Of a DNA stretch of 64,000 nt, positions 8,798 to 50,132 are shown one piece after another. The number at the start of each line of letters is the position of its first letter. The first letter of the stretch is position 1. The position numbers and the translations under genes were made by a program. This stretch comes from an uncultured Pseudohongiella sp. (GTDB taxonomy: Bacteria > Pseudomonadota > Gammaproteobacteria > Pseudomonadales > Pseudohongiellaceae): contig CACJWK010000003.1 of the NCBI GenBank assembly GCA_902597095.1, forward strand, positions 1 to 64,000, written 5' to 3'. Below the pieces are notes generated by a model that saw only the letters and a list, made by a program, of their open reading frames with translations, was not told the origin of the DNA and searched no databases.

Positions 8798-10456
8798 TCA
8801 GCTTCTGTTCGTTCTCTCCCAGTACTCTGCCACCGTGGATTTCATTTCCTTGTGCATCAGCAGAATACCGACCAGATTCGGAACGGTCATCAGCACAATG
8901 GTGATTAGGGAGATGTTCCAGACAATCGTTGTGTCTGCAAGCGCAGCGGTGAAAAATCCGAGCACATAGACAATCCGATAAGGCAGAACGGATCTCGTTC
9001 CGAACAGATAGGTCATGGCGCGATCCCCATAGTAGGACCAGGCAATCGCTGTGGAAAACGCAAACAACATCAATCCGATGGAGACGATGTATTGGCCATA
9101 TTGTCCAAACAGACCCTTAGTGAATGCTTGAGTGGTGAGCGGCACTGAATGCAGAAGCGAATTTCCGGTGACAACGACAGTCAAATCCTCCAGCTGCCCA
9201 TCAACCACATTCAGGGTGCCGGTGATAAGCTCACCTTCACGGGAGTAACGTGTATTCTCTGCCAGTGAACGGGCAGCAATCAGCGTGAACGCCTCGTTGT
9301 TCTGAGGCACACCATTGCTCAATTCAATTTGACCGCTAAAACTTCGGGTATCGGATTCCTCGCCACTCAGGTAGGAAAATAAGCTGGCGACATCATCGGC
9401 GTCAGCCTCAGAATAGGTGCCGGTAACAAAGTTCATGTCTGCCCGCTGAAATTCGTTTTCGAACTTCTCCATCCAGACACCGGAAGAGAGAATCACCAAT
9501 CCGGTAATCGTGCAAATCACGATCGTGTCAATAAACGGCTCAAGAATAGACACCATGCCCTCATCCGCAGGCTCATCAGTGCGCGCTGCGGCATGCGCAA
9601 TCGGGGCTGACCCTTGACCCGCCTCATTGGAATACAGCCCGCGATTTACACCCCGGTCGAATGCATACGCAAATGACGCACCGAGAAACCCGCCTGCAGC
9701 GGCTGAGCCTGAAAAGGCATTACTGAAAATTGATAAGAATGAAGGAATGATGTTGCCGATGTTCGGGATGATGACGGCAAATGCACCGATCAGATAAATC
9801 ATTGCCATTGTGGGCACGATCGCTGCAGCGACCTTCGCGATACGGGTTATCCCGCCAATGATTACCAGAGCGAGAAGGACTGAAAGCACGCTGGCCGTAA
9901 TGAGGGGATCGAGATCAAACGTGCTCTCCAGCCCTGAAGCAATACTGTTGATCTGCGGAAGATTGCCTGTTCCGAATGAACTCAATACTGTGGCAACAGC
10001 GAACACAACCGCTAACCACTTCGTATTGAGACCCTTCTCCATGTAGTACATGGGGCCGCCAGCCATTGTGCCGTCTGCAGTTTCATTCCTGTACTTATGC
10101 GACAGAGTGACCTCGACGAATTTGCTGGTCATCCCAAAGAAAGCGGTCATCCACATCCAAAACAAGGCGGCGGGACCGCCAAGGTGCAAAGCAAGAGCTA
10201 CGCCGCCGATGTTGCCGGTACCCACAGTGCCCGAGAGCGCGGTCGCGAGGGCTTGGAAGTGGGAGGTGTCGCCCTTCGCCCCCTCCTTGTCGAATTTTCC
10301 CGTGGTGACACCGATCGCATGCCTGAAGTAACGAATCTGCGGAAACCCGAGATATAACGTGAAAAAGATACCGGTTGCCAGCAAAAACGTCGGGAACCAG
10401 ATCGCGCTGCCCAGGAAACCATCGATATAGATTAAAAAGTCATTCACTGCGTCCAC
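8798..10456 (-). CDS. Alanine/glycine:sodium symporter (AGCS family)
   Basis: An inner-membrane Na+:alanine/glycine symporter with the family hallmarks [24 protein letters not shown] and [17 protein letters not shown]. At 552 residues it is about 100 longer than typical AlsT/DagA proteins because of a soluble insertion (roughly residues 345-450, acidic, [12 protein letters not shown]). The frame extends to a TTG at 10486, but that would lie upstream of AGGGGAC (complement of 10462-10468); GTG at 10456, 6 nt after this box, is the better start. The stretch AACAATAAAAA just upstream of the box is then a leader element, not coding. It runs convergent with the symporter at 7092-8780, 17 nt apart. 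Confidence 0.9.
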
Positions 10457-10472
10457 GAAAAGTCCCCTGTCG

Positions 10473-10483
10473 TTTTTATTGTT
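10473..10483 (-). promoter_or_regulatory. CA motif (AANAANAA) in the alanine-symporter leader
   Basis: Reading the minus strand, AACAATAAAAA ends 4 nt before the ribosome-binding box of the AGCS gene. This is the A-rich ARN/CA signature bound by Hfq (with Crc in Pseudomonas) to block translation. The identical 11-mer occurs in the leader of the lactate permease at 48319-48329. Given the CrcZ-like RNA in the same window, catabolite repression of this transporter is a reasonable inference. Confidence 0.5.
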
Positions 10484-22705: not shown

Positions 22706-22882
22706 GTGTACATACCACGCACTATACTGATTCTTATCGTAGTCATTTACCTGTTATTTCTCGTTAGCGTTGACTGGATCAACCAGCCCACCGGGGCCTG
22801 GTACCGGCCGTTTTTCCTGGGCCTGCTCATTATTCTAGTAGCAAGCTGGGCTCACAGGGGCAGGGACAGCGATGAGCCTTGA
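22706..22882 (+). CDS. Small two-helix membrane protein upstream of cbrA (CbrX-like)
   Basis: A 58-residue frame starting GTG 22706 (VYIPRTILILIVVIYLLF) with two hydrophobic helices separated by a short polar turn (DWINQPTGAWYR) and a polar end (HRGRDSDEP). It overlaps the kinase start by 11 nt, so both are probably translated together. From memory, Pseudomonas encodes a similar small ORF, cbrX, at this place with overlap to cbrA. GAGAAG upstream is a modest ribosome-binding site. Its role (for example as a small partner of the CbrA transporter domain) is inference. Confidence 0.7.
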   Translation: MYIPRTILILIVVIYLLFLVSVDWINQPTGAWYRPFFLGLLIILVASWAHRGRDSDEP

Positions 22883-25793
22883 TCTGAGCACACTGTTCAT
22901 TCTGGGAAGCAGCTACCTGCTGCTGCTTTTTGGTGTTGCCTACATCACAGATCGTGGCTGGATTCCCACTTCTATCGTAAAGTCGCCGGTTGTGTATGTG
23001 CTGGCTCTGGGTGTGTTCGCAAGCATCTGGGCGTATTACACGTCAATTGGTAATGCACTTGAAAGCGGTTATGGATACCTGGCCAACTCCATCGGCATTT
23101 CCCTTGCTTTTTTGTTTTCGCCCCTGCTCTTAAAACCTCTCCTGGAGCTGTCGCGAACCTACCAATTGAGCTCCCTTGCCGATCTCGTGGCTTTCAGGTA
23201 CCAGTCACCTTGGGCAGGAACCGTGGCCACCATCGTGATTTTGGTCGGGGTCACGCCCCTGCTTGCCTTACAGATCCGTGCTGTGGCCGATACGGCAAAT
23301 CTTCTGACGGAAGAATCCAGCGAAGTCCTCGTGGCCGCAGGCTTCTGCGTCCTGATCACCTTATTCGCGATTCTGTTCGGCACGTCCCGCCGCGCCGGTC
23401 GCACCCGCCACGATGGTCTGGTCATGGCTATCGCCTTCGAATCTTTGGCCAAACTTGCGGCCTACCTCGCGGTGGGGGTGTTCGCAGTCTACGGAGCTTT
23501 TGGGGGACTCGACGGAATCGACCTGTGGCTTCAGTCCCGACCGGATCTGGTTTCGGGACTGAAGGAAACAGATTATTTCAGCTCATTCCATGTTTCAGCG
23601 CTGTTGTTTTTTACTGCCGCCGTTGCCATGCCCCACATGTTCTACGTGACTTTCAACGAAAGTAACGGACAGGCCTCTCTGACCTTTGCCAGCTGGGCAT
23701 TACCTCTCTACTTTCTTTTAATCAGCCTCCCCGTTCTGCCAATTCTGTGGGCCGGCATTCAGTCCGGAAGCGACGTGCAGGTAGAATATTTCCCGGTGAT
23801 CATCGGCGCTGCCTATGACTATCCGATGCTGACGCTCGTTGGCTATCTGGGCGGGCTCTCTGCCGCCAGCGGCCTGATTATCGTCATCACTTTGGCATTG
23901 TCGAATATGTGCCTGAACCACCTGATTCTGCCGGTTACCCAACCATCGGCGAAACAGGATATCTATAGATGGCTGGCTTGGCACCGGCGGATCCTCACGA
24001 CAGCACTCATATGGGCTGGCTTCCTGGTGCACTACCTGTCTGAAAACACCACCAGTGTCCAGGCGATAGGTACCGTAGCCTTCTCTGCCGGCCTGCAATT
24101 CCTGCCCGGAATAGTCGCCATTTTGTATTGGCCTCAGGGCAACAAAAAGGGGTTCCTGGCTGGCCTGCTGAGCGGCGTTGCCATCTGGCTTGGATTTCTG
24201 CTGATTCCCCTTTTCGGCGATGATCCGACGATTACTCTGACGTCCATTAACTGGAGCAGCATCGCTGCACTGTCCCTGATGGTCAACGCAGCACTCTTCA
24301 TAGGAGTTTCCCTGACCACTAACACAACAGATAAAGAAAGGAATTCTGCTGACATCTGTGCCCTCGACACCATCCGTCGCCGTATCCGCAGCGGACTGGT
24401 CGCAAAATCTCCCGAGGAGTTCGTGCGATCCCTGAGCAAACCGCTTGGTCAGGAAGCCGCTAACCGGGAGGTCAATCAAGCACTGAAAGATCTCAAAATT
24501 CGTTATGACGACAATCGTCCCTCGTCGCTTCGCTTGCTGCGTGGGCGCCTCGAAGCAAATCTTTCCGGGCTGCTAGGCCCATCCATAGCAGGGGACATCA
24601 TCGACAGCTACCTGCCCTTTAGCATCGTCGCCAGACACGGCAGCACAGACCTTAATGTCATTGAGAGCAGAATCGAGTCTTACCGCAGTAATTTATCGGG
24701 CATGGCCGCTGATCTTGACAATCTTCGGCGATATCACAGACAGGTCTTACTGGAACTTCCCCTCGGAGTTTGCTCACTGAGCACCGAGGACGAGATTGTA
24801 ATGTGGAATCAGGCGTTGACGGAGATCACCAGAATTGATGCCGGTGAAGCCGTCGGATCGCAGCTACAGGATCTGCCAAATCCCTGGTACGAGCTTCTCC
24901 ATCAGTTCCTCAGACAGGATGAGCACCATACCTATAAGAATAATTTTCAGCTCAACGGCCAGAAAAAATCTGTCAATCTGCATAAAGCTTACATCGATCA
25001 ATCAGATCCCAGAGAGCTGAATCATGAAGGGGTTATCCTGCTCATCGAAGACATTTCCGAAACTGAGATACTCGAGGCGGGCCTGACCCATAGCGAGCGT
25101 CTGGCTTCAATTGGCAGGCTTGCTGCTGGGGTAGCCCATGAAATAGGAAACCCGATCACTGGCATTGCTTGCCTCGCTCAAACCATTCGGGATGAATATC
25201 AGGGCAAGGAACTGGGACAGCTTGCAACCCAGATCATTGAACAAACCGACCGGACGTCTAAGATTCTTCAGTCACTGGTAAATTTTGCGCATGCGGGCGC
25301 GAGTTTGGGAAGCTATGAGAAGCAAGTCGTCAATGTTCGCCAGTGCATGAAGGAAACCTTGACCTTGATCTCTCTTGACAAAAAGAGCAAGGAAATCCGG
25401 ATCAGCACGCAATGCGATGAAAGCCTGAATATTCTCGGTGACGCGCAAAAACTGCTGCAAGTCATGGTGAACCTTGTGAACAACGCACGCGATGCCAGCG
25501 CGGCAGGCAGCGAAGTGCTGATGGCAGCCCATAAAGCTGACGATCAGATTAAGATCACCGTTACCGACAATGGTATCGGTATCCCCGAAGCAATCAGGGA
25601 CCGGGTTTTCGATCCATTCTTCACGACCAAAGAAGCTGGCGAAGGCACCGGACTCGGACTTTCTATGGTATTCAGCATAGTTGGGGATTTGGGAGGAGAT
25701 ATTGATATACTGAGCCCGTGTAATAAGAATCATGGCACCGGTACTCAGGTCATACTGACCTTTTCCGGATATTTTGACACCTCTGAAGCATGA
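22872..25793 (+). CDS. cbrA: CbrA-like sensor histidine kinase with sodium/solute-symporter domain
   Basis: A 973-residue membrane histidine kinase. Residues about 1-480 form a complete SSS/SLC5 transporter-like region with about 13 helices (no soluble periplasmic domain); then a linker/STAC-like segment (480-590), a PAS-like region (about 645-735, [18 protein letters not shown]), HisKA with His756 in [12 protein letters not shown], and HATPase with DNGIGIPE and GEGTGLGLS. In Pseudomonas CbrA fuses a histidine transporter to kinase output and, with CbrB, controls carbon/nitrogen catabolite balance. Gene order gluQ-cbrX-like-cbrA-cbrB-crcZ-pcnB matches. The transported or sensed compound here is unknown. 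Confidence 0.9.
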
Positions 25794-25880: not shown

Positions 25881-27263
25881 ATGATGTCGATGAATCAAAT
25901 TCTTGTCGTAGAGGATGAAGCGGTCATTCGGGCTGCCTTGAGACGTCTGCTGGAGAGGCATGAATACAGGGTAAGCGAAGCCGGATCGGTTAAAGAGTCG
26001 CTGGAAAAATACGACATGGACGCGTTCGACGTCATCATCAGCGATTTACGACTTCCAGGCGCCCCCGGCACCGATCTGATCAAAGCGACCTCAACGCCGG
26101 TTTTGATTATGACCAGTTACTCGAGCATCAAATCAGCCATCGACTCTATGAAGATGGGTGCGGTCGATTACATTGCCAAGCCGTTCGAGCATAATGAGAT
26201 TATTGAAGCTGTCGCCAAAATAATTCGCGAAAATCCGAGCCAGCGACAAGTAAACGCCGCAGACAGCGAAGATGAGTGCGCGCCCATAACCGGCATGATC
26301 GGAAGCTGTTCGCAGATGCAAGAGCTGTTTCGGCGCATCCGGAAAGTCGCTCAAACGAACTCAACGGTGCTTATCAATGGCGAATCAGGCACTGGCAAAG
26401 AACTGGTCGCTCGGGGAATTCATGATTTGAGTAATCGGGAGGGCCAGGAAATGATCTCGGTAAACTGTGCTGCCATCCCTGAGAACCTGATTGAATCGGA
26501 GCTTTTCGGTCACGAGAAAGGCGCATTCACCGGCGCCACAGCGACGAGAACAGGGCTGGTAGAAGCCGCGAACGGAGGCACCCTATTCCTCGATGAAATC
26601 GGCGAACTGCCTCTTGAAGCTCAGGCTCGACTGCTTCGAGTTTTACAGGAAAACGAAATTCGCAAGGTCGGTTCGGTACAGTCAAGAAAGGTTGATGTGC
26701 GTCTCGTCGCAGCAACCCACAGAGATCTGAAACAGCTGGTAGAAGACGGGCTGTTCAGAGAAGATCTCTTCTACAGAATCAACGTCATGACCTTACTGAT
26801 TCCTCCTCTGAGAGAACGCGGAAGTGATGTTCTACAACTAGCCGATGCGATCCTTCAACGAACCTGCCGCCGGCTGAAGGCGCCGACTATGGTGTTCAGT
26901 GAAGGCGCAAGTCAGTCCATCGCGACCTACACCTGGCCAGGCAATGTGCGGGAACTGGAGAATGCGATCGAGCGAGCAGTGGTTCTCGCTGAGAGCGCTG
27001 AGATCGGCGAGGAATTGCTGGCAATCGACATGGATTCCCAGCCAGAGCCCCAACGGACGGACCACTTAGCACCAGCTCAATCCCAGTCCGTAGAACCGAT
27101 CGAAGAATTGTCACTCGAAGATTACTTCCAGCGATTCGTGCTGGAACATCAAGACACGATGAATGAAACACAACTTGCCGGAAAATTAGGAATTAGCAGA
27201 AAATGTCTGTGGGAACGTCGCCAGCGCTTCGGCATTCCCAAAAAGAAGAAGACGGCGGGGTAA
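25881..27263 (+). CDS. cbrB: CbrB-like sigma-54-dependent response regulator
   Basis: A 460-residue NtrC-family activator. Receiver domain residues 1-120 with phospho-acceptor Asp55 ([10 protein letters not shown]); AAA+ domain about 135-370 with Walker A GESGTGKE, the sigma-54-contacting GAFTGA loop ([11 protein letters not shown]), and Walker [15 protein letters not shown]-terminal Fis-type HTH ([20 protein letters not shown]). Starts at ATG 25881, 25884 or 25890 are possible. Cognate of the upstream kinase. Downstream is the CrcZ-like RNA with a -24/-12 promoter, the expected CbrB target. Confidence 0.92.
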
Positions 27264-27309
27264 AGCTGTCGCTCTCGTTGGGGCTTGAAGACATTACCCG
27301 AGTGTATAA

Positions 27310-27356
27310 TGTTACCGATACCCATTTACCCACCAATTTCGGGTAATTTCGTAACA
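27310..27356 (+). promoter_or_regulatory. Inverted TGTTAC...GTAACA site upstream of the crcZ-like promoter
   Basis: TGTTAC (27310-27315) with TACCC (27319-27323) on one side, and GGGTA (27341-27345) with GTAACA (27351-27356) on the other, form a dyad about 100-146 nt before the predicted start. The position and TGTTAC/GTAACA half-sites suit an upstream activating sequence for a dimeric NtrC-type activator, most simply CbrB. Binding is inferred. Confidence 0.55.
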
Positions 27357-27429
27357 AATTCCACCATAACCAAGCTTGGGTTAGGTCATAACAGAGTCAG
27401 CTTGCTGATTTTATTTACTATTTACTTTT

Positions 27430-27445
27430 TGGCATGTAACGTGCA
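27430..27445 (+). promoter_or_regulatory. Sigma-54 (-24/-12) promoter of the CrcZ-like RNA
   Basis: TGGCATGTAACGTGCA has GG (27431-27432) and GC (27443-27444) at the exact -24/-12 spacing; 10 of 12 informative bases match the consensus TGGCACGN4TTGCW. Expected transcription start is near 27456. It is 167 nt after cbrB and precedes the first CA-motif cluster by only a few bases. Confidence 0.8.
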
Positions 27446-27455
27446 ACTTGCTAGC

Positions 27456-27725
27456 TGACAATAACAATAAATAACAACAATAAGCCCAAAAAATAACAAA
27501 AATCGCATTACTAAGTTTCGAACTAAGGTTAGTGCTTAAATAAGAATAAGGTAGGGTTTGCAGGTCTACACGCGGCGGATTGTCGTCAGGCTGCATCATA
27601 ACCGCCTGAAGAAAATTGGCAGAGCACCTTGCTCAGCTGTGGAATAACAATAACAATCAGATTGCTAACAGCAATAATAACAATAACAGATTCCTTCCAA
27701 CGGGGAGGCGCGAGTCGCCTCCCCC
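27456..27725 (+). ncRNA. crcZ: CrcZ-like Hfq/Crc-sequestering small RNA
   Basis: About 270 nt with no credible ORF, between cbrB and pcnB, exactly where crcZ lies in Pseudomonas. Five clusters of overlapping AANAANAA motifs are seen: 27460-27483, 27488-27502, 27538-27549, 27643-27656 and 27673-27688. In Pseudomonas such motifs bind Hfq (with Crc), titrating it away from repressed mRNAs when a poor carbon source activates CbrAB. A matching sigma-54 promoter lies just upstream and a GC hairpin closes the 3' end. Exact ends are inferred. Apart from the CA motifs no long sequence identity to Pseudomonas CrcZ is claimed. Confidence 0.8.
27702..27724 (+). terminator. 3' hairpin of the CrcZ-like RNA
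   Basis: Perfect 9-bp stem GGGGAGGCG (27702-27710) / CGCCTCCCC (27716-27724) with loop CGAGT. No clear T-run follows, so termination could depend on another factor or be an RNA-end-protecting stem. It follows the last CA cluster by 13 nt. Confidence 0.6.
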
Positions 27726-27822
27726 GAACGTTCCAGCTTTGCTCTGCCACTCACCCCTTGCACCACTACACCGAGCATCCACAGTGAAACCGCGGTATCA
27801 TGACTGACATTTTCGGTTTCTG

Positions 27823-29241
27823 ATGCCAGACAGGCTCGAGCATTGCAGTTTTATCAACCCCCACCCAGCACATTCGTGCCAGCGAATCCCCATGCCTGAA
27901 TTAGCAGAACTGCCGGGCATCGAAAGCGCACGGATTATTCCCCGCGAGGAGCACTGCATATCTCGCAAGGATATTTCGCCGCATGCTCTGAAAGTGTTAT
28001 CCCGTCTTGCCGCCTCGGGCTTCTATGGATTTCTTGTCGGAGGAGGCGTCCGCGATTTGCTCCTTGGCGAAAGGCCGAAGGATTTTGATGTAGCCACCAA
28101 CGCAACCCCCGAAGAAGTCCGTCAATTATTTCGTAATTCACGAATTATCGGCCGTCGCTTCCGAATTGTGCATGTACGATTTGGCCGGGAAATCATCGAA
28201 GTCACGACTTTCAGAGGAGCGCCAGAGAAGCAACTCACTGTAGATGAGAAATCGGCACGACGAAGTCTGAAGCATGTGGATGCCGCTCAGAATGAAGACG
28301 GTTTAATGGTCAGGGACAACGTCTATGGTCAAATCGACGAAGATGCCAGACGCCGAGACTTTACCATCAACGCACTGTATTACACGACTGACGGTTTCAA
28401 GCTGCTCGATTTCTGCAACGCCCTCTCTGACTTAAAGAAACATCAGATCAGAATGATCGGAGATCCTCAGGAGCGATACCGGGAAGACCCGGTCCGAATG
28501 CTCAGAGCCCTCAGATTTTCGGCAAAGCTGGGTTTTGAAATCTCCGATGAAACCGCAGCTCCTGTCGAATCGCTCTCTGAGCTGCTGGGCGGGATCTCCC
28601 CTGCACGTCTGTTCGATGAGTTGATAAAGCTATTTTCCACCGGCTACAGTCAAAGCGCATATCAATTGTTGCGCCGTAGCGGCCTGAAACACGCACTGCT
28701 CGCGCCAACTTTCGGAGCGCTTAAACACTGCCAGCCCGAGGATGCAAGATTGCTCGAATTGGCTTTCAGCAACACCGATGCAAGAATTGCGCTGGCGAAG
28801 TCAGTGACACCCTATTTCCTCTTTGCGGCGCTTCTATGGCCGCCCCTGCGTTTGAGCATGCGGCAGGCCGACTGCGGATCGCTCGACTCCAGTCCCCAGT
28901 TCCTGCGACTAGCCAGCCAGATCCTCGCCGAACAAAATCAATTCACCTCGATACCCAAGCGGATCAGCTATGCCTGTCGGGAAATCTGGGAATTGCAAGG
29001 CAGACTTACAACGCGAACCCGGCAAACAATTGAGGCTACACTCAATCATCCTCGTTTTCGAGCAGCCTATGACTTTCTGCTGCTTCGCGAAGCAGCGGGG
29101 GAAGCACTCGGAGAGAGTGGAGAGTGGTGGACGGTTTACCAATTCGGAGATGACATACAAAAGCAAGAATTGATTGAAGGCTTACCTAAAACCAGAAGAA
29201 GGCGCCGACGCAAGCGACGCCCCGCAGGAAGCAATCCATGA
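27823..29241 (+). CDS. pcnB: Poly(A) polymerase I
   Basis: PcnB adds 3' poly(A) tails that promote RNA decay. The 472-residue protein has the nucleotidyltransferase motif GFLVGGGVRDLLLGERPKDFDVATN, catalytic acid pair DFD, the DARRRDFTINALYY segment and a Lys/Arg-rich C-terminal tail (RRRRRKRRPAG), as in PcnB rather than CCA-adding enzyme. The start may be ATG 27823 or the internal ATG 27892 (MPELAELPG); the first 23 residues look unlike family members. Follows the CrcZ-like RNA. The next gene overlaps by 4 nt. Confidence 0.95.
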   Translation: MPDRLEHCSFINPHPAHSCQRIPMPELAELPGIESARIIPREEHCISRKDISPHALKVLSRLAASGFYGFLVGGGVRDLLLGERPKDFDVATNATPEEVRQLFRNSRIIGRRFRIVHVRFGREIIEVTTFRGAPEKQLTVDEKSARRSLKHVDAAQNEDGLMVRDNVYGQIDEDARRRDFTINALYYTTDGFKLLDFCNALSDLKKHQIRMIGDPQERYREDPVRMLRALRFSAKLGFEISDETAAPVESLSELLGGISPARLFDELIKLFSTGYSQSAYQLLRRSGLKHALLAPTFGALKHCQPEDARLLELAFSNTDARIALAKSVTPYFLFAALLWPPLRLSMRQADCGSLDSSPQFLRLASQILAEQNQFTSIPKRISYACREIWELQGRLTTRTRQTIEATLNHPRFRAAYDFLLLREAAGEALGESGEWWTVYQFGDDIQKQELIEGLPKTRRRRRRKRRPAGSNP

Positions 29242-29906
29242 GCAGCGGGCTGCAAGACCTGAAACAGACACCCCGATTCATCGCAGTCGAAGGGCCCATC
29301 GGTGTTGGCAAGACCAGTTTAACCAAGCGCCTGGCTGAAACCTTCAACTATGAACTTCTGCTCGAAAATGCTGAAGAAAATCCGTTTCTCGATCGCTTCT
29401 ATCAGGATCCAAGACAGCATGCCTTGGCCACGCAGTTGTTTTTCCTGTTCCAGCGAGCTCAACAAATCGCAGAATCGCGACAAAGTGATTTATTTGAACC
29501 TGTCCGTGTCTCAGACTTCCTTATTGACAAGGACAGGTTATTTGCAGAATTGAATCTGGAAAAAGACGAATACGACTTATACCACAAGGTTTATCAACAT
29601 CTTGTCATTGACGCACCCAAACCAGATCTCGTGATCTATCTTCAGGCACCGACAGAAGTCCTGCTGCGGAGAATTCAGAAACGGGGGATCCCCTCAGAGC
29701 AGATGATAGAGTCCGAGTATCTGAACCAGTTGAACCGGGCCTACACAGAGTTTTTTCACTACTATTCGGATTCCAAATTGCTGATAGTTAATAGCGCAGA
29801 GATTGACCTCGTCAGTAATGACGAAGACTACGAGCAACTGGTAACATACATTTTGTCTTTGCCAAACGGCACACACTATTTCAATCCGAAACCGACTTTG
29901 TTGTAG
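29238..29906 (+). CDS. Deoxynucleoside kinase (dNK family)
   Basis: A 222-residue P-loop kinase: Walker A AVEGPIGVGKTSL (about 16-28), acidic substrate loop ENPFLDRFYQD, DFLIDKDRLFAELNL and a lid with RRIQKRGIPSEQ. It belongs to the deoxyadenosine/deoxyguanosine/thymidine-type dNK group that salvages deoxynucleosides. It is encoded in the slot where Pseudomonas has folK (pterin pyrophosphokinase), which has a different fold, so it is not FolK. ATGA overlap with pcnB indicates coupling. Confidence 0.9.
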   Translation: MSSGLQDLKQTPRFIAVEGPIGVGKTSLTKRLAETFNYELLLENAEENPFLDRFYQDPRQHALATQLFFLFQRAQQIAESRQSDLFEPVRVSDFLIDKDRLFAELNLEKDEYDLYHKVYQHLVIDAPKPDLVIYLQAPTEVLLRRIQKRGIPSEQMIESEYLNQLNRAYTEFFHYYSDSKLLIVNSAEIDLVSNDEDYEQLVTYILSLPNGTHYFNPKPTLL

Positions 29907-47862: not shown

Positions 47863-48350
47863 GGCGGCAGACTATCCTTTGAAGTCTGTTCGTGAGTTGT
47901 ATTGGGCTGTTCATCCGAGCTAGCTACCGGGGTCGCTCACAGTGGCGGTTTATCAGCAACCACCAGGACTAGCCCATCCTGAGCAAGCTTTGCATTCACC
48001 CACGGCGTCGGCTCTTTCAGTTGTTGTGAGCAAGGCCCATGCTGACACAGCGCCAACCTTCAACACGGCGGAGGGCGTTCATATTCCTGCTCTATTCAGC
48101 CTGATGGCAACGAGCCGTCGGCGAGAATGCCAGCCTATGAGCGAACCCTCTCGCTACCAGTCTGAACAAGCTGAAACGATACCCTCTATGCCAGCCCTCT
48201 CGCTCGCGTAACTTGCTGCTCCCCGCAGCAAAAACAGCGGAATTGCGCCAATCCTGTCTGAACCGCGGCTTATGTACTGGACGATAATCTGCTAAGCTCA
48301 AGACAGTGTCAGTGCTTCAACAATAAAAATTACAGCGGCGGAAATTTGCC
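47863..48350 (+). other. 488-nt intergenic region before the lactate permease
   Basis: No convincing gene. An 89-aa frame (47942-48211) has no domain, a poor start and a repetitive, Pro/Ala/Ser-rich look, and is rejected. Near the 3' end GG (48279-48280) and GC (48291-48292) stand at -24/-12 spacing (only about 7 of 12 consensus matches), followed by a CA motif at 48319-48329 and ACAGCGGCGGAAATTTGCC before ATG 48351. Confidence 0.4.
48319..48329 (+). promoter_or_regulatory. CA motif (AANAANAA) in the lactate-permease leader
   Basis: AACAATAAAAA, 21 nt before the ATG and upstream of GCGGCGGAA. The same 11-mer is found in front of the alanine symporter (10473-10483, minus strand). It fits an Hfq/Crc-binding site near the translation start; function inferred. 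Confidence 0.5.
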
Positions 48351-50132
48351 ATGAGCACCAGTGTCCTAGCCCTTCTTTCACTGCTCCCGATCATTTCGGT
48401 TGCCATTTTTCTGGTCATACTCAGATGGCCTGCCAGCAGGGCAATGCCGATTGCTTACGTCGTCGCCGCTGGCCTGGCCTACTTTGTCTGGGAGGTTTCG
48501 GGCACAAAGATAATGGCAGCGAGCGTTAACGGCCTCATTGTGGCCGGAACCCTGATCTACATTATCTTCGGCGCCATTTTGCTGCTTAATACACTCCAAC
48601 AAAGCGGCGCTATTGCCACTATCCGCCAGGGGTTTTCTGACATCACCCCGGACCGCCGCATTCAGGTCATCATCATTGCCTGGCTTTTCGGCTCTTTTAT
48701 TGAGGGATCAGCTGGATTTGGCACACCCGCAGCGGTCGCGGTGCCGCTCATGGTCGGCCTCGGTTTTCCGGCCATGGCAGCGGTTGTGGCGGGCATGATC
48801 ATTCAAAGCACGCCGGTGTCATTCGGAGCGATGGGCACCCCTATCTTAGTGGGGGTAAGCACCGGGCTGTCGGCAGACCCTGATATGTCTGCCTATGCAG
48901 CAACGCGCGGGTTCGGTGAGTTCGAGCCATTTCTTGAATTCATCGCAGCCAAGGTCGCCTTGATGCACGCTCTGGCGGGGACATTCATTCCTCTACTGGT
49001 TACTTCCGTGATGACACGATTTTTTGGCGCCAGCAGATCATTCGCTGAAGGCTTTCAGGTCTGGCAGTTTGCCCTGTTCGCCGCTTTTGCGATGACAATT
49101 CCCTATTTGCTGGTGGCCACCTATCTCGGCCCGGAGTTTCCCTCCATGTTTGGCGGCATGATCGGGCTCGCCATTGTAGTCACCGCTGCTAAAGCGGGAT
49201 TCCTCATGCCTGAAAAATCCGATGCATGGGATTTCGAATCACCAGAGCAATGGGAGAAAGAATGGAGCGGCGAGCTTCAGAGCAAAGTTGAGCCGCAATC
49301 AAAAAGCATGGGCTTAATTACGGCGTGGTCGCCCTATGTTTTTGTGGCGGGGCTGCTCGTACTGACAAGACTCAGGGCCCTGAATCTGGAAACCTTTCTG
49401 CGTGCTGATCATCCCTCAATCACTTGGAGCTGGCCAGAGATTTTCGGCAGTGACATTTCTGCCTCGTTCCAGCCGCTGTGGTCTCCCGGTACCATTTTCA
49501 TCCTGGTCAGCCTGATCACAATCGGTCTGCACAGGATCAGTGCCGCCGAGTATCAACGGGCGCTATCCAGCTCCCTGAAGACGCTGCTGCCGGCCTCGAC
49601 GGCGCTCGTTTTTACCGTGCCCATGGTCCAAGTCTTTTTAAACAGCAGTGGTGGAGCGGCGGGCTATGAACAAATGCCGCTCGCTCTGGCTGAGGGAGTC
49701 GCAAATCTTGCCGGTTCGGCCTGGCCGTTCTTTGCAACTTTTATCGGCGGGCTAGGCGCTTTCGTAGCCGGCAGCAATACCGTCAGCAATATGATGTTCT
49801 CTCTTTTCCAGTTCGGGGTCGGCGAGCGTATACTGGTTGATCCAACCTGGATTGTGGCGCTGCAAGCAGTTGGTGGTGCTTCAGGCAACATCATATGTGT
49901 CCACAACGTAGTCGCCGCCTCTGCTGTTGCCGGACTGATCGGTAAAGAAGGTGCAGTGATCAGAAAAACTCTTCTGCCGTTCTTTTACTATGCACTGATG
50001 ACAGGTTCGATCGGCTACGGGGTTGTCAATCTCAATCAGGGCCTGTTAAATCCCGGATTTGCGATTGCAACGATGATTGTGTTTGTCTTTATCTATTACA
50101 TCGTCAAATACAACCGCACCCGTCCCGATTGA
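48351..50132 (+). CDS. L-lactate permease, LctP/LldP family
   Basis: A 593-residue integral membrane protein with about 13 helices and family motifs [33 protein letters not shown], and [20 protein letters not shown]. These proteins import lactate and glycolate with H+. A soluble loop (about 285-330) separates the halves. ATG 48351 follows a G-rich box. The neighbouring 2-hydroxyacid dehydrogenase and PPDK suggest growth on lactate or glycolate. selB begins 46 nt after its end. Confidence 0.92.

Follow-up and report, generated by a model that had tools for sequence, protein, structure and literature searches.

A predicted CrcZ-type decoy RNA between cbrB and pcnB in an uncultured Pseudohongiella species, from a genus in which no canonical Crc was found

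In Pseudomonas aeruginosa, Hfq binds A-rich ribosome-binding sites and is titrated by the small RNA CrcZ (PMC4063720). The same source describes Hfq as apparently necessary and sufficient for the repression of amiE in Escherichia coli, and reports that full amiE repression in P. aeruginosa required Crc. The finding that Crc alone does not bind RNA (PMC3662782) raised the question of whether Hfq on its own can be the target. CrcY and CrcX of Pseudomonas and Azotobacter are A-rich decoys of the same system, and the CbrB subsites of P. putida follow the consensus TGTTAC-N12-14-GTAACA-N15-19-GTAACA (PMC8871633). The two-component system CbrAB has been called unique (PMC8871633) or exclusive (PMC6296734) to the Pseudomonadaceae, and the cbrA-cbrB-crcZ organisation is stated to have been described only in Pseudomonas and Azotobacter (PMC8871633). 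Outside this group, sRNA99 of Acinetobacter baumannii carries three A-rich (AAN) motifs and behaved like CrcZ in RIL-seq (PMC12802169), a likeness of motifs and behaviour.

The window analysed here, a stretch of 64,000 nucleotides from a contig of an uncultured Pseudohongiella species, contains a gap between cbrB and pcnB (27264-27822) inside which an RNA of this kind is predicted. With CrcZ of Pseudomonas (RF01675) it shares the place between cbrB and pcnB, the sigma-54 promoter, the CbrB-type sites, the A-rich motifs, and the terminal hairpin. It differs in length (about 270 nt, compared with 407 nt for CrcZ of P. aeruginosa; PMC4063720), falls below the Rfam threshold, has a 5' hairpin of its own, and belongs to a genus in which no canonical Crc was found. 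CrcY and CrcX are additional copies in Pseudomonas and Azotobacter; in the source genome, which is 77% complete, no second one-strand cluster of AAYAAYAAYAA sites was seen. With a probability of roughly 0.8, the stretch 27456-27726 is a CrcZ orthologue, a decoy whose transcription would be driven by CbrB and sigma-54 and which would titrate Hfq and free transporter mRNAs. Its identity as a CrcZ-type RNA is well supported by comparison of sequences, namely by its position, the predicted sigma-54 promoter and CbrB-type sites, the A-rich motifs, a sub-threshold Rfam match, and conservation. The features of the locus are as follows.

1442-2905, + strand: open frame of rpoN (sigma-54), with PF04552 at 2417-2893
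22872-25793, + strand: cbrA, sensor kinase with HisKA and HATPase domains, named by synteny; the transporter part lies below the Pfam threshold used
25881-27263, + strand: cbrB, sigma-54 activator response regulator, recognised by its domains and named by synteny
27310-27315, + strand: predicted forward CbrB-type subsite (F1), exact hexamer TGTTAC
27351-27356, + strand: predicted reverse CbrB-type subsite (R2), exact hexamer GTAACA
27429-27445, + strand: predicted sigma-54 promoter TTGGCATGTAACGTGCA (GG-N10-GC), conserved in relatives
27456-27726, + strand: predicted CrcZ-type RNA, its start inferred from the promoter and its end from the hairpin
27460-27483, + strand: A-rich cluster 1, five AANAANAA starts
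27489-27502, + strand: A-rich cluster 2, three AANAANAA starts
27505-27535, + strand: conserved 5' hairpin GCATTACTAAG...GGTTAGTGC, with 98.3% of cells paired and no two-sided changes
27539-27549, + strand: A-rich cluster 3, two AANAANAA starts
27573-27585, + strand: short central hairpin, two-sided (compensatory) changes in 3 of 4 pairs
27643-27656, + strand: A-rich cluster 4, three AANAANAA starts
27673-27686, + strand: A-rich cluster 5, three AANAANAA starts
27702-27724, + strand: terminator-like terminal hairpin, two-sided changes in 6 of 10 pairs
27823-29241, + strand: pcnB, TIGR01942 over cut-off, starting about 100 nt past the terminal hairpin

A sequence-only reading of the window had already proposed five A-rich clusters in about 270 nt, a terminal hairpin, and a placement like that of crcZ, all of which are borne out. 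The 16 AANAANAA starts within 27456-27725 are grouped in exactly five clusters; dinucleotide shuffles of this segment had a mean of 1.06 and a maximum of 8 such starts, none of 2000 reaching 16, and elsewhere in the window the highest count in 270 nt, over both strands, was 3. The longest ATG-initiated frame in the gap encodes 62 aa and is antisense. Directly after pcnB (29238-29906) lies a gene for a deoxynucleoside kinase family protein, which fits the earlier statement that folK is missing, at that place; in Pseudomonas, folK occupies this place. Between 1442 and 4295, rpoN is followed by two frames that resemble ptsN and rapZ, with no hpf-sized gene between. The source genome carries hfq outside the window, as one of 36 hfq-bearing genomes among the 38 searched.

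The sigma-54 promoter (27429-27445) and the CbrB-type hexamers (27310, 27351) had been missed by the sequence-only reading, and their predicted arrangement is that found at Pseudomonas crcZ. A relaxed sigma-54 pattern has two matches in the whole window, both strands taken together, one of them this promoter. Counted from the promoter GC, the RNA would start near 27456, and the Rfam match begins there too. F1 and R2 lie 41 nt apart, start to start, within the 39-45 nt that the P. putida consensus allows; the R1 subsite of that consensus is not recognisable at the source locus. Across 17 loci of the genus, F1 is located 143-147 nt ahead of the inferred RNA start in 16, and the F1-R2 spacing is 40-41 nt in 16, one of which reads GTAACG; the hexamer pair is absent from the single exception, L018.

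A permissive Rfam scan of the gap aligned the CrcZ model end to end with 27458-27756 (24.7 bits, E 1.1e-4 for 567 nt searched), far below the RF01675 gathering score of 95 bits. At gathering thresholds, Rfam gave no match in the whole window. A whole-genome search with RF01675 at E 0.001 gave none either, and the control genomes were also blank, so this is not proof of absence; the match was therefore judged by the permissive scan and comparative anatomy. Since only 2 of 13 named loci match RF01675 at gathering, both from Pseudomonas, this threshold does not reach other genera. SorY, which gave E 0.81 in the permissive scan, was dismissed.

These elements suggest the following course of events. 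Once a preferred carbon source is exhausted, CbrA would activate CbrB, which would bind the TGTTAC/GTAACA sites and drive sigma-54-dependent transcription of the RNA. The five A-rich clusters may then occupy the distal face of Hfq, and mRNAs with A-rich operators at their ribosome-binding regions would be freed and subsequently translated. This derepression would extend to cstA, the lactate permease, and the alanine and other symporters.

What the decoy titrates is most likely Hfq itself, because no canonical Crc was found in the genus. The sequence-only reading had called the RNA an Hfq/Crc decoy; its CrcZ-type part is well supported, and the part that concerns Crc is not. In P. aeruginosa Crc, only two of the four catalytic residues remain (PMC3662782), and we regarded a Crc as nuclease-dead if two or more of E35, D148, N150, D245, and H246 were changed. 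None of 25 genus genomes, of which 14 are at least 90% complete, yielded such a protein in the homologue search, and neither did a Pfam search of six of them. Homologues matched in 23 of the 25 (all but G018 and G020), and the active site is intact in every readable copy, those of G005 and G009 being partial. The source genome itself has one close Crc homologue (G000:C2:63834-64607), whose best PDB match is an exonuclease, followed by P. aeruginosa Crc, and whose nuclease residues (E35, D148, N150, D220, D245, H246 in Crc numbering) are intact. Searched likewise, the near relatives G038, G039 (LSUCC0112), G040, and G045 showed no dead copy, and G041 no match. For other families, the same search does recover dead Crc (E 1e-59 to 1e-83). 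It is present in 12 of the 13 genomes that represent other families of the order (G026 gave no match) and in 19 of 20 named genomes outside the group (Alloalcanivorax has only a distant exonuclease). These copies keep K77 (R in G028), K135, K139, R140, and R141. An Hfq/Crc system without canonical Crc, in which the decoy appears to persist in the genus and the usual partner is not found, would be unusual, and such a genus offers a natural test of Hfq alone as the target.

A different partner is conceivable, although we regard it as rather improbable: the RNA might act on a complex of Hfq with exonuclease III, the nuclease-intact Crc homologue having taken over the co-repressor role of Crc by means of a basic patch. 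R140, E142, and the basic patch of P. aeruginosa Crc matter for repression (PMC6422490, PMC9890229), and the homologue in the source genome retains R138, K139, R140, R141, and E142 together with its intact nuclease site. Among the 20 genomes in or near the family that have both the RNA and a readable protein, 13 have K or R at 140 and 141 and three more have K140-N141, compared with none of three genomes without the RNA for K or R at both positions. This association is suggestive only (Fisher P 0.07), the three RNA-less genomes belonging to one clade. Their proteins have no basic residue at 140, as is also the case in four of the 20 genomes that do have the RNA (G023, G024, LSUCC0112, and UBA5078). 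Moreover, only positions 138-140 discriminate, because the Neisseria exonuclease has R141 as well, and K77, K135, and R196 of Crc are mostly missing from the genus homologues. In a tree calculated without the patch and active-site columns, from which five long or doubtful rows had been dropped, the genus proteins form a clade of their own, separate from Crc. With all columns included, an exonuclease III tree had nested Crc within the genus; as this nesting disappeared in the column-trimmed tree, we do not propose that Crc originated inside the source family. Furthermore, in genome G036 (L065) the complete R-K-R-R-E patch is found on an exonuclease III whose nuclease site is intact, and this genome also encodes a dead Crc. 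Extended to the whole family, the proposal would be that Hfq has exchanged Crc for a functional DNA-repair exonuclease III, which holds A-rich RNA by the basic patch that Crc uses and retains its nuclease, and that the RNA titrates this complex. We consider this broader form slightly less probable still; if true, it would represent a parallel, bifunctional solution to Hfq/Crc control. Titration of Hfq itself is preferred, perhaps with the help of exonuclease III in some members.

The genus set comprised 25 genomes including the source, and 21 of them were readable upstream of pcnB (the cbrB-pcnB junction was not readable in G004, G005, G006, and G014). The RNA is present upstream of pcnB in 18 of these 21, with cbrB seen beside it in 17; in G019, the contig ends inside the RNA. 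It is absent from G017, G020, and G021, where cbrB lies close before pcnB. At L113 of genome G045, cbrB similarly abuts pcnB and the RNA is absent between them. We found hfq in G017, G020, and G021, and a sigma-54 domain in G017, G020, and G045, none being found in G021. Conservation had been thought to be confined to the CA motifs; this is not the case, as other sequence is conserved within the genus, above all the hairpin at 27505-27535. In an alignment of 15 of the 18 genus RNAs, which may be flattered by leaving out the truncated L012 and the divergent L017 and L018, 94.8% of cells were paired compared with 87.9 in shuffles (0/500), and 30 cells were changed on both sides compared with 10.1 (0/500). 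Nine pairs in this alignment had a two-sided change compared with 5.4 (5/500), and further pair types were not above shuffles (21 versus 22.1). The two-sided changes fall in the central and terminal hairpins and the 5' hairpin is nearly invariant; all three hairpins are supported by the genus alignment. The single-strand fold of the source RNA is somewhat better than shuffles (z -2.27, 3/200).

The terminal hairpin also bears on the possibility that the A-rich stretch serves as a pcnB leader instead of forming a separate RNA, with sigma-54 transcription reading through into pcnB, and that Hfq controls the synthesis of poly(A) polymerase. The short distance from the hairpin to the start of pcnB would fit such a leader, and in the source species the hairpin is not followed by a U-run and the terminator scan finds no terminator. 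However, a U-run follows the hairpin in the relatives L007, L009, L010, and L016, the hairpin is kept with compensatory changes, and crcZ is a separate gene in Pseudomonas (PMC8871633). A pcnB leader is thus unlikely, and a separate decoy RNA remains the preferred reading.

Turning to the mRNAs that this decoy might free, the motif AAYAAYAAYAA occurs at 30 sites in the source genome, seven of which are inside the RNA. Five of the remaining 23 are located 20-38 nt before a plausible start (the other 18 are not), and the genes that follow encode a nucleoside symporter, a GltD-like oxidoreductase, an SSF symporter, an MFS transporter (with an assumed TTG start), and a CstA-like protein, which matches NCBIfam CstA below cut-off. 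By a Poisson estimate, 0.47 sites would be expected within 45 nt before a start compared with the five of 23 found (P 1.3e-4), which is weak evidence as the estimate assumes 2200 genes and ignores the A-richness of leaders. Within the window, short motifs precede two further transporter genes, whence the remark of the sequence-only reading on alanine and lactate uptake.

10473-10483, - strand: candidate Hfq operator of a sodium:alanine symporter, two overlapping A-rich motifs that start 27 and 24 nt upstream of the presumed GTG start codon (10456)
48319-48329, + strand: candidate Hfq operator of a lactate permease (48351-50129), two overlapping A-rich motifs 32 and 29 nt before the start

The lactate permease leader carries the motif in the source genome and in all four relatives in which the gene was found (8 stretches fetched), and the alanine symporter leader carries it in the source genome and in six of seven such relatives (10 stretches). 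For the alanine symporter, whose query (8801-10459) extends one codon beyond the presumed GTG start at 10456, the counted leader comprised the 75 nt preceding the query start and the 12 nt following it, wider than the 60 nt used elsewhere; in G024, the symporter motif lies at the far end of the counted stretch. The stretches from genomes lacking the RNA contained neither gene and so provide no contrast. For cstA, 15 of the 17 genomes that have the RNA carry the leader motif, compared with 0 of 4 without it; the motif is also present in all three genomes that have an unreadable junction and a cstA leader that was read; the leaders of G024 and G038 contain near-matches only. The leader of the exonuclease III gene, used as a control, has the motif in 2 of 19 genomes with the RNA and in 0 of 3 without it (cstA versus control in genomes with the RNA, Fisher 4.7e-6). 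At two other leaders the motif is less constant, and the differences were not significant for the SSS-symporter leader (11/19 with versus 0/4 without the RNA, Fisher 0.09) and the GltD-like leader (7/14 versus 0/3, Fisher 0.23). These counts leave out G004, G005, G006, and G014, and become 18/20 for cstA, 12/21 for the SSS symporter, 7/16 for the GltD-like gene, and 2/21 for the control if they are included. The search for cstA covered 29 genomes and led to 24 leaders that were read; G005, G009, and G018 had no match, G001 had a fragment without the start, and G003 had a distant match only.

In the genomes without the RNA, a different sequence replaces the cstA motif between stretches that are kept. 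These four genomes have a GC content of 0.59-0.64 (0.41-0.61 in those with the RNA, for the loci read), and three of them form one clade in the exonuclease III tree, the fourth having no such protein. Because the RNA-less genomes are GC-rich and three fall in one clade, the joint loss of the RNA and the cstA operator may be a single event or an effect of composition; they probably represent one lineage. As an order-wide target, cstA was rejected: a similar CstA (E 1e-60) occurs in only 2 of 30 genomes outside the family, and the leader in one of these, Alloalcanivorax, has no A-rich element.

According to the sequence-only reading, descriptions of such RNAs come mainly from Pseudomonas and Azotobacter. 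This agrees with PMC8871633; in the sequences, candidate loci are spread over many families of the order. When named genomes were searched with an alignment of pcnB, at least 590 candidate loci were obtained, of which the best 80 were kept, and cbrB was recognised by a C-terminal CbrB signature. Among these best 80 of at least 590 loci, cbrB lies no more than 1.5 kb from pcnB in 53; A-rich motifs (at least six AANAANAA starts in 300 nt of the gap) are present in 52 of the 53, and a sigma-54-like site lies just ahead of them in 47. The lone exception among the 53 is L113, where cbrB abuts pcnB. Marinobacter, Halomonas, Cellvibrio, Gilvimarinus, Microbulbifer, Marinomonas, Neptunomonas, Oceanospirillum, Zhongshania, Spongiibacter, Alloalcanivorax, and Pseudomonas are represented among the 52. 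The other 27 of the best 80 loci include 22 with 0-4 AANAANAA starts, three of them (L102, L126, L145) cut by a contig end, and five that have 8-22 starts without a recognised cbrB nearby: three on truncated contigs (L098, L107, L124), one with cbrB further off (L148), and one in which the signature was unmatched (L109). Both hexamers are found upstream in 43 of the 50 named loci that have a sigma-54 site and A-rich motifs, and at least one hexamer within 170 nt upstream in 49. Short A-rich motifs do occur in leaders and gaps, including one in each of 2 of 19 control leaders, but it is very improbable that the pattern is a remnant or a by-product of base composition in an AT-rich gap, given that none of the 2000 shuffles attained the motif count, that the motifs keep a fixed phase to the promoter and hexamers across families, and that they are present in Halomonas and Pseudomonas, which are GC-rich.

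Literature searches returned no report of CrcZ in Marinobacter, and broader ones none outside the Pseudomonadaceae among the matches listed; as most subscription journals were outside the coverage, earlier reports may exist elsewhere. In a 2026 preprint on CbrA (PMC13022988), the words Marinobacter, Halomonas, and Gammaproteobacteria are absent. This layout is found again in many related genera for which the reviews do not report it. Judging by the promoter, hexamers, A-rich RNA, and gene arrangement that these loci share, carbon use may be controlled in a similar manner across much of the order. At loci L022 and L027 (families f12 and f6), two sigma-54-like sites occur in tandem upstream of pcnB with A-rich clusters after each, an arrangement suggestive of two adjacent decoy RNAs.
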